Below, piece by piece: positions 3,937-16,515 of a stretch of DNA of 33,318 bases. The notes beneath the pieces are model-generated. The model had not been told where the DNA came from. It did no database searches and saw only the letters and a program-made list of their open reading frames with translations. The DNA lies in contig JABFRW010000150.1 in the NCBI GenBank assembly GCA_013140805.1, positions 1 to 33,318 on the forward strand, in the 5' to 3' direction. Origin of the DNA: Candidatus Eisenbacteria bacterium. Its GTDB lineage: Bacteria > Eisenbacteria > RBG-16-71-46. The position numbers and the translations under genes are program-made. Numbering within the stretch: position 1 is the stretch's first letter; every line of letters begins with the position of its first letter.

Positions 3937-6371
<2,435 letters not shown>

Positions 6372-6372
<1 letters not shown>

Positions 6373-8222
6373 TGAACAATCAGGACGTCGCACGCGTGCT
6401 CGAACAGCTCGCCACCATGCTCGAGATCGACGGCGCGAATCCGTTCCGGGTGCGCGCCTATCGCGAGGGCGGCCGCATCGTGGGCTCGCTCCCGCAACCG
6501 GTGGCGACGCTCGCCGCCGAGGCCGGCGCGCTCGAGGCGCTCAAGGGCATCGGCAAGGACCTGGCGCAGAAGATTCGCGACCTGGTCGCGAGCGGTTCGA
6601 CCGAACTGTTCGACGAGCTCAAGCTGCGGATTCCGCTCGAGGTGGTGGCGCTCACCGAGTTGCAGGGGCTGGGCCCCAAGCGGGTGCAGACGCTCATGAC
6701 CGAGCTGAAGGTGAAGGATCGCGCGACGCTCGAGGCGGCCGCGAAGGCCGGCAAGCTGCGCGACCTCCCGGGCTTCGGCGAGAAGGTCGAGCAGAACGTG
6801 CTCAAGGCGCTCGCGACCGCTGAGCAGTCGAGCGGGCGCATGCTCATGGCCGGTGCGTGGGGGGTCGCGCACGAGTTGCTGGCGCGCGTGAAGGCAGTGA
6901 AGGGCGTCCATCACGCGGAACTCGCGGGTTCGTTCCGGCGGCGGCGCGAAACGATCGGCGATCTGGATGTGCTCGCGACCGGAGGTCGCGCCGAAACCGT
7001 CATGGAGGTGTTCGTCACGCACCCGGACGTGGTCGACGTGCTCGGCCGCGGCGACACCAAGTCGTCGGTGCGATTGCGAAACGGCCTCCAGGTGGACCTT
7101 CGCCACGTTCCCGATGCGAGCTTCGGCGCGGCGTTGCTCTACTTTACCGGCAGCAAGGCGCACAACATCGAGTTGCGAAAGAGGGCGATCGACAAGGGAT
7201 GGTCGCTCAATGAATACGGGCTCACGAAGGGCGAGCGCACGATCGCCGGTCGCACCGAGGAAGAGATCTACCAGGCGCTCGGGCTCGCCTGGATTCCGCC
7301 CGAGCTTCGCGAGTCGAACGGCGAGCTCGAGCTGGCCGCCGCAGGCAAGCTCCCGAAGCTGATCGAGCTCGACGACATCCGCGGCGACCTGCACATGCAC
7401 TCGACCCGTAGCGACGGCAAGGACACGCTCGAGGCCATGGTGAAAGCCGCTCGCGATCGCGGGCTCGAGTACGTCGCGATCACCGAGCACTCGAAAGTGT
7501 TGCCGATGACCCGCGGATTCGACGACGCACGCGTGGCGAAGTCGGTGGCGGAGATCGAGGCGGTGCGTCGTGCCGTGCCGGGCATTGAAGTGCTGCACGG
7601 CCTCGAAGTCGACATTCTCGGTGACGGGTCGCTCGATCTGGGCGACGAAGCGCTCGGGCTGCTCGATTGGGTCGTGATCTCGCTGCATACGCGTCTCGGT
7701 ATGGAGCGCGACGAGATGACGTCGCGCGTGCTGCGAGCCCTCGATCACCCCGCGGTCGCCGCGATGGGTCACCCGACCGCGCGCCGCATCGGTCAGCGCG
7801 ACGCCGTGGCGATCGACCTCGATGCGGTGTTCGAGCGTGCGGCCGCGCGCGGGGTTGCGATGGAACTGAGTGCTCAGCCGGACCGCACCGACCTCGACGA
7901 CGTGAACGCGCGCCGCGCGGCGGCACTCGGCTGCTCGTTCGTCATCGACACCGACGCGCACGCCACCTCGCAGCTCGAGCTGATGCGCTACGGCGTCTTC
8001 ACCGCGCGGCGTGCCGGGCTTTCGAAGAACGCGATTCTCAATACCATGCCGTTCGCGAAGCTCGAGGAGCGGCTTGCGAAGCGCCGAACCGCCACGCCCG
8101 GGAAGGGCGTCGCCCCGTCAAAGCTCGCGGTCCCGAAGGCGGCGAAATCGAAGGCGGGCAAGCCGAAGGCTGCGGGGCGTGCGAAATCGGCGGCACCGAC
8201 CCGCAAGCGGTCCGCGAAGTAA
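6372..8222 (+). CDS. polX: Bacterial family X DNA polymerase/3'-5' exonuclease with PHP domain (PolX)
   Basis: 616 residues from ATG 6372; a GTG one codon earlier is also in frame, but ATG with GGAGGGAAG upstream fits better. The order is an N-terminal HhH/8-kDa-like region (ALEALKGIGKDLAQKIRDL), a second HhH (LPGFGEKVEQNV), then the nucleotidyltransferase site (GSFRRRRETIGDLDVLA with D197 and D199, third Asp at D242 in LQVDLRHV). The C-terminal PHP domain has GDLHMHS (H341, H343), TEHS (H373), GHPTAR and DTDAHA. Family members fill short gaps in base-excision repair and trim 3' ends through the PHP domain. The last ~45 residues are an extra Lys/Ala/Arg/Pro-rich tail not typical of the family. 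A terminator-like hairpin follows at 8284-8332. Confidence 0.96.
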
Positions 8223-8403: not shown

Positions 8404-9222
8404 GTGATCCCACTGATTCCTTCGTTCTCGAAGTTCGGCTTCATCGTCGCATCGGTGCGCAGTGCCGGTGCGCGCGTCCTGACTCCGGTTCTCGCACTCG
8501 CGCTCGTGTTCGGATTCTCGACGCGCGCGCTCGCGGTGGACGTCAACATCACCGCCGACAATGCCTATGTCTTCGATTACGGTCCGGCTGCAGGACCGAC
8601 CTCACTGTTCGGCGGGGTCGAGAACTGTCTGTCGTCTGAAATCTTCTCGTGCGGACCGGGACCCGAGGCCTATCTCGGGGTGCCGGCGCTCTCCGGTGAG
8701 TATCTCTATGTCGTCACCTGGAGCGATGGTGGCGTGACTCAGGGCGTCCTGGGTGACTTCACCGATGGATCGACGATCGTGCGCACCGGCCAGCAGGGTT
8801 GGCAGGTCTTCGCGACTGGTCTCGACATCGATCCCGACTGCGGACCCGGGTCGAGTGTTCCGTCGCTCGCCACGGTCACCACTCAGATCGGTCTGGCAAA
8901 TTCCAACTCGGGCGGCGTGAATTCGAGCGTCGGCTGGGTGGGACCCACCGGAGGTTCGCTGGGAACCATCGGCGTACTCGCGATCGGAGAACTGAATGAC
9001 TCCGCGGCGGGCAACTTCCCGATCGTCTGCAACATTCTGAACAACGCTCGTTGGATGTGGTACAACCCGGACCCGTTGAGCATCACGGATCCGTTCCGCA
9101 TCGGAGCGGCGCCAAATCTCCCGAACGACAACAACGAGTTCCTGATCTTCCGGCTGCCTGCGGAAATCGCAACGTCGATCGGTGGCAAGACCTGGGGCCG
9201 TCTCAAGGTCTCGTACCGCTAG
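8404..9222 (+). CDS. Secreted hypothetical protein with C-terminal WGRLK-xx-YR tail
   Basis: The 272-residue product starts at GTG 8404, with a strong AAGGAGG at 8391-8397. A long signal peptide (hydrophobic VLTPVLALALVFGFST, then RALA before VDVNITAD) points to export. The mature part is Asn/Gly/Ser-rich and beta-like: 'GEYLYVVTWSDGG' and 'GWQVFATGLDIDPDC' suggest a jelly-roll-type surface domain, but I recognise no family. It contains several Cys (NCLSSEIFSC, PDCGPG, IVCNIL), consistent with an extracytoplasmic disulfide-bonded protein. It ends KTWGRLKVSYR; the next gene ends ASWGRLKTIYR, so this tail may be a processed sorting or attachment signal. A strong terminator follows. Confidence 0.8.
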   Translation: MIPLIPSFSKFGFIVASVRSAGARVLTPVLALALVFGFSTRALAVDVNITADNAYVFDYGPAAGPTSLFGGVENCLSSEIFSCGPGPEAYLGVPALSGEYLYVVTWSDGGVTQGVLGDFTDGSTIVRTGQQGWQVFATGLDIDPDCGPGSSVPSLATVTTQIGLANSNSGGVNSSVGWVGPTGGSLGTIGVLAIGELNDSAAGNFPIVCNILNNARWMWYNPDPLSITDPFRIGAAPNLPNDNNEFLIFRLPAEIATSIGGKTWGRLKVSYR

Positions 9223-9244
9223 TCGCGGATTCATCACGGTTTCG

Positions 9245-9275
9245 AAACCGACCGCGCCCGGCACGCGGTCGGTTT
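9245..9275 (+). terminator. Strong 12-bp stem terminator
   Basis: AAACCGACCGCG (9245-9256) pairs perfectly with CGCGGTCGGTTT (9264-9275) around a 7-nt loop, ending in a T tract. Its left arm overlaps the perfect palindrome CGGTTTCGAAACCG (9237-9250), so two competing hairpins are possible; the 12-bp stem should dominate. It separates the two WGRLK-tail genes into different transcripts or attenuates the second. Confidence 0.85.
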
Positions 9276-9327
9276 TCGTTCGCGCGGCACGCCGCCGCAC
9301 CATCACGGTTCTCTCTCGGAGGTCGTC

Positions 9328-9996
9328 ATGCGCTCGCTTCGTTCGAACTCCTGCCTGGCCCTCGCGCTCCTCTGCGTGTGCGCCGCCCCGACCCGTGCAC
9401 TCGCCGGCGTACCCTCGCCGCTCAACACTACGATCCCGCTCAACATCGTCGTGTGCCCTCAGGCGGACATCCCGTTCACCATGGTCGTGCGCGACGCAGC
9501 GAACAATCCGGTGGTCGGGAGCTTCGTCGAGCTGAATTTCTCGACGTGCAGCGTTCCGGCCGCCTACCCGAATGACGTCCCGGTGCGGTTCTGCCCGAGC
9601 GATCCGGGACCCGGGATCACGCCGATCGGACCCGGGCACGTTGCGGCACTCACCAACGCGGCGGGCGTGGTCACGTTCTTCCTTCGCGCGGGCGGCGTGT
9701 GCGTGGGCAGCGCGGTCGAGATTCGCGCCGACGGTGTGAGTCTTGGCCAGCGCGGCGCCGCCTCGCCCGATCAGAATGGCAGCCTGTCGGTGTTCTCGAA
9801 TCCCGACGCGCTCGAACTGGTGGCGAAGGAGAGTGTCGCGCTCTACGACGTCACTGCGGACCTGGACTCCGACGGCGATACGAACACGGATGCCGGCGAC
9901 ATCGCCGTGTACGACGCGCACGCGGGCCACACGTGCGATGCGCGGACGCCGACGCGTGATGCAAGCTGGGGTCGGCTGAAGACGATTTACCGCTAG
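9328..9996 (+). CDS. Secreted Ig-like/dockerin-like protein with C-terminal WGRLK-xx-YR tail
   Basis: This 222-residue protein starts at ATG 9328 with GGAGG at 9318-9322. The signal peptide is MRSLRSNSCLALALLCVC ending near TRALA. The body resembles a bacterial Ig-like (Big-1 type) fold: 'PFTMVVRDAANNPVVGSFVE' and 'AALTNAAGVVTFFLRAGG' match the pattern of such domains. Near the C-terminus DLDSDGDTNTDAGDIAVYD is an EF-hand/dockerin-like calcium loop, normally used for protein-protein docking. The final residues ASWGRLKTIYR repeat the tail of the preceding protein. It is most likely a surface or extracellular structural protein; its partner is unknown. It converges on the dehydrogenase gene with 8 nt between stops. 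Confidence 0.8.
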   Translation: MRSLRSNSCLALALLCVCAAPTRALAGVPSPLNTTIPLNIVVCPQADIPFTMVVRDAANNPVVGSFVELNFSTCSVPAAYPNDVPVRFCPSDPGPGITPIGPGHVAALTNAAGVVTFFLRAGGVCVGSAVEIRADGVSLGQRGAASPDQNGSLSVFSNPDALELVAKESVALYDVTADLDSDGDTNTDAGDIAVYDAHAGHTCDARTPTRDASWGRLKTIYR

Positions 9997-13067: not shown

Positions 13068-13148
13068 CTGGAATATCGCTTGCTCCAGCTGCGACGCATG
13101 CGACTCTCGAGGCTGGAATCGATGCCCCGACCCTCGTCAGGAGTTCTC

Positions 13149-14069
13149 ATGCGCGCTGCAAATTCGATCGCCGTGTGTCTCGTCGCACTCGCCTCATCAT
13201 CGCTCGTTCCGCTCGCGCTCTCGGCGCCGACGGTGGGATTCCAGGAAACCTGGAACAACGGACTGCTCAACGGTTGGACAGGCGGATTCGAGCTCGAGTA
13301 CACGAATCCGGGCAGCGGAGGGGTGGGCGGCAGCGGCTACCTGCGGGTGAACGCGCCACCCCCTCCCAAGAACGTCGGGACGCGTTCGAACGGCGCCGAG
13401 TACTTCGGGAGCTGGAGTCGCCCGGGAATCACCTCGGTGCGCATGTCGTTGAGCGATCTCGGCACCAGCGATGCGTTCCTGCTCCATCTCTCGGTTGGTT
13501 CGAACGCCAGCCTGTTCCAGCACAATGTCGGGTTCGTGCCTCCGGTGAGCGGATGGGCGGAGTACGTCGTCGACCTCACGCAGCCCGGCGACTTCACGCA
13601 GATCATCACTCCGCCCGGCGGCGCGACGCTCGCGCAGGCGCTCGACACCGTGCAGGTCGTGCTCATCCGCCACGATCTCGCCCCCTATGTCATGAGTCCG
13701 AATACCGCCTTCGGCGACTTCGGCGTCGACAACCTGCAACTCGTCGGAAGCGGAGTGTCGGTCGATCCCGTGCGCCGGCCTCCGACCACGAATCGCCCGG
13801 TCGAACTCGCACCGCCGGCTCCGAATCCCGCGCGCGGCCGCGTGACGCTTCACTTCACGAGTCCGGTCACCGCCGACGTCACGATCCGCATCGTCGACGC
13901 GGCGGGACGGCTGGTGCGTCGGGAGCTGATCCGGGGCGCCTCAGGCTCGCGGCAGTGGGTGTGGGACGGCCGCGACGACCACGGCACCCGGGCGCCCGCC
14001 GGTGTCTATCGCGCGATTGCCGCGTCGCCGATGGGTGGCATGAGCCGGTCGTTCGTCCGGATCGACTGA
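13149..14069 (+). CDS. Secreted protein with C-terminal FlgD/T9SS-type Ig-like domain
   Basis: ATG 13149 with CAGGAG about 8 nt upstream gives 306 residues and a clean signal peptide (AANSIAVCLVALASSSLVPL, cleavage near ALSA). An earlier in-frame ATG (13080) would bury the signal peptide. The mature N-terminal ~190 residues begin 'GFQETWNNGLLNGWTGGFEL' and look like a jelly-roll or carbohydrate-binding-type beta sandwich. After a Pro-rich linker the last ~80 residues form a FlgD-Ig-like domain: PAPNPARGRVTLHF, VTIRIVDAAGRLVRRE, WVWDGRDDHGTRAPAGVYR. Such domains serve as secretion or anchoring modules in type IX systems and related bacteria. Function of the N-terminal part is unknown; a surface or polymer-binding role is plausible. 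Confidence 0.78.
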   Translation: MRAANSIAVCLVALASSSLVPLALSAPTVGFQETWNNGLLNGWTGGFELEYTNPGSGGVGGSGYLRVNAPPPPKNVGTRSNGAEYFGSWSRPGITSVRMSLSDLGTSDAFLLHLSVGSNASLFQHNVGFVPPVSGWAEYVVDLTQPGDFTQIITPPGGATLAQALDTVQVVLIRHDLAPYVMSPNTAFGDFGVDNLQLVGSGVSVDPVRRPPTTNRPVELAPPAPNPARGRVTLHFTSPVTADVTIRIVDAAGRLVRRELIRGASGSRQWVWDGRDDHGTRAPAGVYRAIAASPMGGMSRSFVRID

Positions 14070-14199
14070 CGGCCTCCGACGAGGCGTCGCCGCGGTCTTG
14101 CATCCTTGCGGACGCTGGTTCAGGCTTTGCCCGGCGCTGCCACGTCCGTCAACGCGCAACCGAGCGGCGCCGACTGATCCCTTTCTTCGGAGGCTGCCC

Positions 14200-16515
14200 G
14201 TGTCCCCGTTCCGCGCTCGTCGAGTGTCGTGGCGAAGCGCTCGGGTCAGCGCCCGGGCTTCGGGTCTCGTCGGCGCTCTCTTGCTCTGCTGGGCCTTGAG
14301 TGCCTTCGGAGCGCCCCCTCGGATCGAGTTCGGATGGTACGGACTGACCGTTGGCGCCAGGTCCGACCACCGGGCGATCTATGACCGATCGCGCGACGGC
14401 GTCATCGTTATCGGTGGCAAGCTGGGCGGGTCGGGCTATCAGGATGCATGGCTGATTCCGCTCAACGGAATCGATCGACCCAGGCGAATCGGTGGTGCCC
14501 GAGGAGGGCACTTCGGCGGGGGCACTTCCGCGGCGATGGATCCGAAACACGATCGCCTGTTCGCATTCGGTGGGTACGAGGTCCTCGTCGCGGACTGCTG
14601 TTACGGCTATGCGATTCAGGACGAGGGCGTGATGTTGACCACGCAGCTTGGCGAGGAGGAAGGCTGGCACACGCTCGCCGGCAACTACTGCCCATCTTGC
14701 ACTCGTCCAGCTCGGCGGTTCGGTAGTTCGCTGACGTACGATTCGAGGCGCGGTCGCTTGCTCGCATTCGGCGGAGGCATGCACACCCATCCATACGGTT
14801 TTGTCGACCTATTCGATCGCGCGAACGATCTCTGGGAGTTTCTGCCCGATTCGACCGAGGATTGGTCCGAGCTTCACCCTTCAGGATCGCCGCCGTCGCT
14901 CGCGTACAGCGTCGACGGACGCGCCTTTCTCGATGCCGCGCACGATCGAATGCTGTACGTGCTGGGCGGACGCGTGTGGTCACTGAACCTGGCGACACTT
15001 CATTGGGACTCGCTGACCAACTCGCCTGCCAAGATTCCAGACGACGCGGCGATCGCCTTCGACCCAGATCGTTCTGTGCTCTTCGCGGTGCACTTCGGCA
15101 ACGTTTGGCGACTCGAGGTCGCGGCTCCAGACGAGTGGCAGCCGGTCGCGATCGCACCGGCGGGGGCAATTCCAAACGGCGAAGCCATCTGGGATCCGTC
15201 TCGAGCTCGTCTCGTGATCTTCAGCGGGCCTCAAACCGAGGGTGCCGAACCTTCCGGACCGACGCCAGTGCTCAGGTGGTTGGATCCGAGACTCGCTGTT
15301 CCCGGCTGGCAGATTCTCTATGACGGGCGCATTCCGTCGGGCCTTACGCCAACTTCGCGCGCGATCTATGACACCCGCCGGGATCGCGTCGTGCTGTTCG
15401 CATTTGCCGGCCAACGATATGAACTGGTCGCGAGGCCCGAGACCGGGCGATGGGAGCCGATTCCGGCGAGTTCCATCGATGCGACCGCTTCACTCAGTTC
15501 CGCGGTGTATGACCCCCTGAACGACCGCGTGCTGGCGGCCTTCCTCGGCTCTCGGGTCTTCGCCTTCGACTTTGATGATGGCGGCGGATGGCAGGCCGTG
15601 GGCGGTGCGTTGCCCGAGTTCAGTCTCGTCGGATACCTGCCAGGCGAGCGCAGACCCATCGTTCTCGGATGGAATCTGCAGACATGGACGTCCGAAGTGT
15701 TTGAACTTCGGCCCTCGGCGGCAGCCGACGAGTGGGTTCGTGTTCCGATGATTGGCGCGGCGCCGCCCCCGCGATGGCTCGCGGAGTTTCAGGGAGAATT
15801 TCAGAGTCCGAGGCTCCACTACTTCGCGGGCACGGATTTCCTGGACGTTCAGCTCGACTCGCTGTGGACGCTCGAAGTCGCGGACTCGGCGCGCTGGTCT
15901 CGCCGTGCGTGGGGGGGCTGGATCGCAAGTCCCTACCCTGGTACCGCATTCGACCCCTATCGGGGAATCGCCTTCGTCTATGGGTATCAGGCGGTCGGCG
16001 CCGGCTGGCGCTATGAGGGACAGGCGCTCAATGTGCGAACCAACCGCGTCGATCAGTTCGCGGTCACGGGCGAACCCACATTGCCCGTTCGCGACGGGGC
16101 GTTCGCGATCTACGATCCCGTACACGATCGGTTCCTGTTCGGAGGAGGTCGGAGCAACCCAACGACCTATCACGACGTCTTTGCCTTCGCCTGGCCTGCG
16201 TCCGGCACGGTCGTTCCCGTTGGAGTTACACCCGCAGATCCCGGGCCAGCGAACGTCACCGCACGCTTCGTCAGGCTCGACGGGCGCTGGGTGCTCCGGG
16301 TGGAGGGAGGCTCACGCCGCATCGATCGTGTCGAGCTATTCGACGTGGCGGGGCGAAGAGTCGGGACTCGTCGCATCGACGCGACCGCTGGCGTCGGCGC
16401 GCCCCTGCAGCTCGAGATGCCCGCCTCGATGCGACGCGGAATCTACTTCGCCCGCGTGAGCGGGCTCGGCTTCAGGACCTCGCTTCGAGTGCCCGCGCTG
16501 TGGCTCGACCGCTAG
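14200..16515 (+). CDS. Secreted Kelch-like beta-propeller protein with C-terminal sorting-type domain
   Basis: GTG 14200, preceded by CGGAGG, gives 771 residues. Arg-rich residues precede the hydrophobic segment GLVGALLLCWALSAFG and a likely cleavage near GAPPR. The body has repeated 'YD..RDR..vFGG' blades typical of Kelch/galactose-oxidase-like propellers, for example YDRSRDGVIVIGG, DPKHDRLFAFGG, YDSRRGRLLAFGG, YDTRRDRVVLFA, YDPLNDRVLAAF and YDPVHDRFLFGGG. There are enough repeats for one large or two small propellers. The last ~85 residues contain VELFDVAGRRVGTRR and MRRGIYFARVSG, a type IX-like Ig module. No catalytic residues can be assigned, so it is probably a binding or surface protein. 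Base composition is slightly less GC-extreme than its neighbours. The 130-nt gap before it holds only a small stem without a T-run. Confidence 0.8.
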   Translation: MSPFRARRVSWRSARVSARASGLVGALLLCWALSAFGAPPRIEFGWYGLTVGARSDHRAIYDRSRDGVIVIGGKLGGSGYQDAWLIPLNGIDRPRRIGGARGGHFGGGTSAAMDPKHDRLFAFGGYEVLVADCCYGYAIQDEGVMLTTQLGEEEGWHTLAGNYCPSCTRPARRFGSSLTYDSRRGRLLAFGGGMHTHPYGFVDLFDRANDLWEFLPDSTEDWSELHPSGSPPSLAYSVDGRAFLDAAHDRMLYVLGGRVWSLNLATLHWDSLTNSPAKIPDDAAIAFDPDRSVLFAVHFGNVWRLEVAAPDEWQPVAIAPAGAIPNGEAIWDPSRARLVIFSGPQTEGAEPSGPTPVLRWLDPRLAVPGWQILYDGRIPSGLTPTSRAIYDTRRDRVVLFAFAGQRYELVARPETGRWEPIPASSIDATASLSSAVYDPLNDRVLAAFLGSRVFAFDFDDGGGWQAVGGALPEFSLVGYLPGERRPIVLGWNLQTWTSEVFELRPSAAADEWVRVPMIGAAPPPRWLAEFQGEFQSPRLHYFAGTDFLDVQLDSLWTLEVADSARWSRRAWGGWIASPYPGTAFDPYRGIAFVYGYQAVGAGWRYEGQALNVRTNRVDQFAVTGEPTLPVRDGAFAIYDPVHDRFLFGGGRSNPTTYHDVFAFAWPASGTVVPVGVTPADPGPANVTARFVRLDGRWVLRVEGGSRRIDRVELFDVAGRRVGTRRIDATAGVGAPLQLEMPASMRRGIYFARVSGLGFRTSLRVPALWLDR

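Follow-up and report, generated by a model that had tools for sequence, protein, structure and literature searches.

Results

Two neighbouring proteins with dissimilar bodies end in the same tail

Why should two adjacent genes for exported proteins, with nothing else in common, end in almost the same residues directly before the stop codon? The pair lies in the window, by which we mean the whole stretch of 33,318 nucleotides that was analysed; it is contig 150 of a 3.8-Mb, 215-contig Candidatus Eisenbacteria genome (GCA_013140805.1). A first-pass annotation had read the two C-termini, TWGRLKVSYR and SWGRLKTIYR, as a terminal tag of the sorting type on unrelated exported proteins. Both open reading frames are present with these ends and with predicted signal peptides, and each is preceded by a Shine-Dalgarno-like GGAGG. 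Their features are as follows.

8404..9222, + strand: tagged exported protein 1, 272 aa (open reading frame; no Pfam or NCBIfam domain match to its body)
8404..8535, + strand: protein 1 predicted signal peptide, cleavage after ...STRALA (heuristic and direct sequence reading)
9193..9219, + strand: protein 1 C-terminal tag WGRLKVSYR, stop codon 9220-9222 (sequence, motif searches)
9328..9996, + strand: tagged exported protein 2, 222 aa, with Ig-like domain, dockerin-like domain, linker and tag (open reading frame, homologues, AlphaFold model)
9328..9405, + strand: protein 2 predicted signal peptide, cleavage after ...TRALA (heuristic and sequence reading)
9442..9762, + strand: protein 2 Ig-like beta domain, residues 39-145 (AlphaFold model, weak Big_1 similarity, Foldseek)
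9790..9927, + strand: protein 2 dockerin-like calcium-binding repeat region, two helices (AlphaFold model; homologues weakly match Dockerin_1)
9943..9966, + strand: protein 2 disordered linker ...TPTRDAS preceding the tag (pLDDT <50 from residue 206)
9967..9993, + strand: protein 2 C-terminal tag WGRLKTIYR, stop codon 9994-9996 (sequence, motif searches)

We found by BLASTP that the two bodies are dissimilar, with similarity confined to the last 10 residues; the proteins are not homologues. Allowing up to two mismatches, the tag matched only these two sites in the window and had no match in 100 shuffles. No homologue of protein 1 was found among the 46 other genomes of the phylum.

Between the two genes, at 9245-9275, a perfect 12-nt inverted repeat is followed by a short T-rich stretch. 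This is probably a transcription terminator, and thus the genes for proteins 1 and 2 may not form one operon. Upstream of the pair, positions 4357-8222 hold an NAD-dependent DNA ligase (LigA) followed directly by a family X DNA polymerase with a PHP domain.

The tag is strictly terminal and occurs on many unrelated bodies

A search of the whole genome with the pattern W-G-x-[LIV]-K-x-x-[YF]-R, with no stop codon required, returned 42 sites, so that the motif is far from confined to the pair. Forty-one of these stand immediately before a stop codon and the 42nd (L216), which lies in a signal-peptide ORF, is cut off where its contig ends; none of the 42 is internal, and the reversed control pattern had no match in the same genome. 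Near-variants (F or L in place of W, W in place of Y) bring the number of tagged ORFs to 44; the heuristic caller assigned signal peptides to 38 of these, the other six being short, broken or without a recognisable start. Thus, the sites are terminal and lie on exported rather than cytoplasmic proteins.

The tagged bodies fall into about 28 unrelated groups that have only the tail in common, with a few small groups of paralogues (the largest with five members). Tails in this genome follow the consensus P-T-P-T-x-x-x-[ST]-W-G-x-[LIV]-K-x-x-Y-R-COOH, and the C-terminal residue is Arg in every tag selected. In one tagged family the tail is kept while identity in the body falls to 26-56%.

The tag is widespread within the phylum, being present in 44 of 47 genomes, with 5-41 copies per genome in most families, 0-3 in family f11 and none in f7. 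Beyond the phylum set, the matches listed include Krumholzibacteriota, Latescibacterota, a Zixiibacteriota bin, UBP1, Coatesbacteria, Poribacteria, Effluviviaceae and others; the named genomes are a sample of tag carriers rather than a full list. Copy numbers among the listed genomes reach 71 in one and 51 in another, with 27-39 in several. Outside the window's genome the extended consensus is S-P-V-E-x-x-[ST]-W-G-x-[IV]-K-x-[LM]-Y-R. Matches in Lachnospiraceae and Pedobacter in the collection scan were located in tiny ORFs, and we dropped them as chance.

Tagged proteins are small, exported and of surface type

In a multi-phylum sample of 8-kb loci, signal peptides were predicted for 51 of 61 complete tagged ORFs compared to 131 of 449 untagged ORFs (odds ratio 12.4, P 3e-16); since the caller is a simple heuristic, this ratio weighs more than the absolute counts. 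At least one tagged protein, at L010, has a signal peptide of the lipoprotein type. The domains found in tagged bodies (choice_anch_E and J, LTD (lamin-tail), PPC, NHL/ScyF propellers, CHRD, beta-helix, cohesin, M36-associated and others) are typical of surface or extracellular proteins; the 'choice-of-anchor' domains were so named at NCBI to reflect their co-occurrence with many different anchoring signals. Tagged proteins have a median length of 252 aa, compared to about 710-740 aa for proteins with T9SS C-terminal domains (CTDs).

No NCBIfam or Pfam model describes the tag, and the tails of 132 tagged proteins gave no match to any sorting-signal model; the T9SS type A model TIGR04183 matched 0 of 132 at E <= 0.1. 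We found no hydrophobic segment on either side of the tag, which strongly supports the first-pass annotation in setting the tail apart from LPXTG and PEP-CTERM signals.

The conserved part of the tail comprises 9-10 residues, with no folded beta CTD and without motifs B and D (GxY). In AlphaFold models of the window's protein 2 and of a 14-member tagged family the bodies are folded and the tails have pLDDT <50; the model of the 14-member family draws the tail as an isolated helix, at low confidence. Over the nine terminal residues the hydrophobic moment is highest at around 110 degrees, the pattern of an amphipathic helix. The tag is thus a floppy appendage, which may form a short amphipathic helix with the conserved Ser/Thr as its cap.

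Related bodies carry either the tag or a T9SS type A domain

The family of protein 2 shows what can stand in the place of the tag. The Ig-like domain of protein 2 has as its top Foldseek match the invasin-type adhesin InvE (E 5.8e-5), and six members of the family, including that in the window, terminate in the tag. A 774-aa protein at L250 has a signal peptide and an Ig-dockerin body of the protein 2 type, and its C-terminus matches TIGR04183 (26.2 bits); the match of another family member, at L251, is weaker.

A second case is provided by two adjacent paralogues at L078 that are 40% identical over 189 aa: one (L078:4077-6290) has a T9SS type A end (TIGR04183 26.0 bits, cut-off 23), and its neighbour (L078:6290-6982) ends in the tag. 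Four more untagged relatives of tagged proteins have T9SS-type C-termini, two of them above the cut-off. Among the proteins examined, none carried both the tag and a T9SS type A domain. Thus, the tag and T9SS CTDs stand in for each other on homologous bodies.

The two kinds of end also resemble each other in their basic residues. Of 18 local CTDs, 17 carry K/R at -6 and -1, and the tag has K at -5 and R at -1, a likeness of spacing that does not establish homology of the residues. Of the residues through which type A CTDs contact the translocon, only a Lys near the C-terminus is almost invariant (PMC10994853).

Two adjoining genes with T9SS type A-like ends, at 13080-16515, also lie in the window itself, 3 kb from the tagged pair.

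13080..14069, + strand: exported protein with T9SS type A-like C-terminal domain (PAGVYRAIA...), context (weak TIGR04183 and PorZ-tail matches, below cut-off)
14098..16515, + strand: Kelch-repeat protein with tail RRGIYFARVSG..., T9SS type A-like by eye, context (no TIGR04183 match)

About 14 homologues of protein 2 have neither the tag nor a T9SS CTD and end exactly where the linker would start. In such members (L228, L230-L233, L238, L241-L243, L245-L247) the last two residues are almost always Cys-Pro, and Cys-Pro also directly precedes the tag linker in many tagged proteins. We looked past these Cys-Pro ends for a tag hidden by frameshift or readthrough and found none directly downstream. 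At eight loci (L248, own contig C89, and L229, L231, L232, L233, L238, L241 and L245) a tagged gene lies about 0.85 kb downstream of an untagged protein 2 homologue, which in most cases ends in Cys-Pro; the two products may be partners.

The tag occurs largely in genomes with T9SS machinery

Within the phylum, SprA was detected in 46 of 47 genomes at E <= 0.001 (38 above the curated cut-off), and T9SS CTD proteins were found in all 47, with about 40-100 matches in most and a minimum of nine. Proteins of the PorV family were likewise present in 47 of 47, with 6-15 paralogues each among the matches listed, an expansion that suggests several specialised T9SS shuttles. We considered the number of PorV paralogues as a marker of tag-bearing genomes and rejected it, since there are 6-15 copies everywhere among the matches listed and no clear signal. 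In other lineages, SprA was found in 17 of 19 tag-bearing genomes. The co-occurrence of tag and T9SS as a whole is confounded by shared ancestry.

The association has exceptions in both directions. The one genome of the phylum with no SprA match (G010), a fragmented, 86%-complete bin, has 12 tag matches along with PorV and CTD proteins. In the other lineages, the exceptions are a 1.3-Mb Kerfeldbacteria bin with three tags and an actinobacterial bin with a single tag, neither of which has SprA. Gene transfer or mis-binning could explain these two; nevertheless, SprA-less bins with the tag weigh against a strict link between tag and T9SS. Conversely, G012, G038 and G043 have T9SS proteins and no tag, so the presence of a T9SS is not sufficient for the tag. 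The Kerfeldbacteria contig appears genuine, with GroEL, primase and Nudix genes; a tagged signal-peptide protein is encoded at L071:4760-5785 (contig G051:C28) on this apparently genuine Kerfeldbacteria (Patescibacteria) contig, and its gene was possibly acquired by transfer.

The first-pass annotation had suggested looking for a transpeptidase, protease or outer-membrane channel that co-occurs with the tag. The SprA channel does; all-against-all clustering of 627 ORFs from 114 loci yielded only surface-protein families and housekeeping genes, with no recurrent neighbour that would be a dedicated protease or receptor, and no dedicated transpeptidase was identified either.

Discussion

A probable short modular signal and the machines that might read it

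The strictly terminal placement of the tag, its association with signal peptides and surface-type domains, and its interchange with CTDs on homologous bodies strongly support the first-pass proposal of a sorting-type tag, and we consider it very probable that the tail directs proteins to the outer membrane or the cell surface. The overall signal would be P-T/V-x-x-x-[ST]-W-G-x-[ILV]-K-x-[LIM]-[YF]-R-COOH, short, modular and borne on a flexible linker. The signal peptide would take tagged proteins through Sec, after which a receptor in the periplasm would read the exposed C-terminal peptide and direct the protein to the outer membrane or surface.

The further suggestion that the tag belongs to a system not yet described fared less well: since the tag tracks T9SS genomes and replaces CTDs on homologous bodies, a known translocon may handle it. 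The most likely machine would be the T9SS, with the tag as a minimal alternative, mainly for small proteins, to a folded CTD of 40-80 aa; we regard this reading as evenly balanced between right and wrong. Features of T9SS substrates are found in tagged proteins, namely a Sec signal peptide and SprA and PorV in the genome, with the tagged exceptions noted above. The shuttle might be one of the several PorV-like paralogues, dedicated to the tag. T9SS type B CTDs, which are served by PorP/SprF-like proteins, offer a precedent for a second class of T9SS signal with its own shuttle (PMC12618676). If the T9SS does read the tag, the mode of binding would have to differ from that of folded CTDs. Known CTDs bury ~1,850 A2 in the SprA-PorV pocket (PMC10994853) and the shortest described are three-stranded folds of 40-51 aa (PMC11969387), and thus a peptide of nine residues, possibly helical, cannot bind in that way.

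Alternatively, a separate, undescribed sorting or anchoring system with its own receptor might operate in T9SS-bearing bacteria and compete for similar bodies, a less likely reading that we nevertheless take seriously. Several observations fit it: in one and the same phylum, G012 and family f11 have a T9SS but few copies of the tag or none; the tag has no fold in common with CTDs, a floppy short helix being predicted for it; its carriers are small; and it occurs in a SprA-less genome. However, we found no candidate machine, and of the other multi-copy tag genomes tested, from several phyla, nearly all have SprA. That Eisenbacteria, Krumholzibacteriota, Latescibacterota and their relatives run such a pathway beside the T9SS, with a receptor of its own and tens of proteins per genome, is a tentative proposal with perhaps a little more in its favour. 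We think it unlikely that the tag is instead a docking peptide, an amphipathic helix that, without translocation, keeps the protein attached to a partner or to either face of the outer membrane. The hydrophobic moment, the helical tail in one low-confidence model, the lipoprotein-type signal peptide at L010 and the eight loci at which a tagged gene lies downstream of an untagged protein 2 homologue would all suit docking, but the replacement of the tag by T9SS CTDs and the adhesin-like domains favour surface display. Moreover, apart from W, G, the hydrophobic position, K, Y and R, almost every position is free to vary, which suits specific recognition more than partition into a membrane.

In other bacteria, periplasmic proteases recognise C-terminal peptides, and the tag might accordingly be a degron or quality-control signal for such a protease; its strong conservation over diverse surface-type proteins and phyla, together with CTD swapping, makes this very improbable. 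The small size of the motif is all that speaks for coincidence, or for a domain remnant common through gene duplication, and this reading is refuted by the empty controls, the 42 terminal sites with none internal, and the unrelated bodies. Returning to the T9SS as the reader of the tag, we found no shuttle or protease specific to the tag.

Novelty and meaning

The tag appears to be new: no family model describes it, and in the literature searched on C-terminal tags or the T9SS in Eisenbacteria, Krumholzibacteriota and Latescibacterota we found no description. Sortases, exosortases and the T9SS were discovered by way of C-terminal tags (LPXTG, PEP-CTERM, MYXO-CTERM and T9SS CTDs). A tag with its own machine, if this proved true, would be more than another C-terminal sorting signal. 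Here nine residues, with no membrane segment or fold, mark as many as 71 proteins in a genome, across several uncultured phyla, and allow a large part of the surface proteome that these bacteria export to be annotated together. They also raise a testable question, namely whether the T9SS reads a minimal peptide or another sorting machine does so, and so short a tag is potentially a handy handle for surface display.

Comparison with known C-terminal signals

The closest likeness is to the T9SS type A CTD (TIGR04183/PF18962), which is also a C-terminal signal on Sec-exported proteins with surface-type bodies in the same genomes, with a basic terminal residue and a second basic residue a few positions upstream, and homologous bodies carry either one. 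In contrast to type A CTDs, including the short CTDs of Prevotella intermedia, the tag lacks the 40-80 aa beta fold, motif B, the GxY motif D and any HMM match, and consists of nine conserved residues on a disordered linker, in proteins mostly of ~250 aa. Type B CTDs differ from the tag in being folded domains with five motifs, often encoded beside a shuttle gene (PMC12618676); we saw no linkage of this kind for the tag.

Like the PEP-CTERM/exosortase and MYXO-CTERM/myxosortase signals, the tag is shared by dozens of exported proteins in a genome that are otherwise unrelated, NHL/ScyF and choice-of-anchor bodies among them, but it has no transmembrane segment, PEP motif, invariant Cys or arginine cluster after a helix. 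The signature motif, transmembrane helix and basic tail of GlyGly-CTERM and LPXTG signals are likewise missing. The cargo-loading peptides of encapsulins are also short, conserved and C-terminal behind a flexible linker, but encapsulin cargo is cytoplasmic and tagged proteins bear signal peptides. Finally, the beta-signal of outer-membrane proteins shares with the tag extreme C-terminal conservation on envelope proteins; however, it ends in an aromatic residue on beta barrels, whereas the tag ends in Arg, on bodies that are propellers, Ig-like, beta-helix and others.
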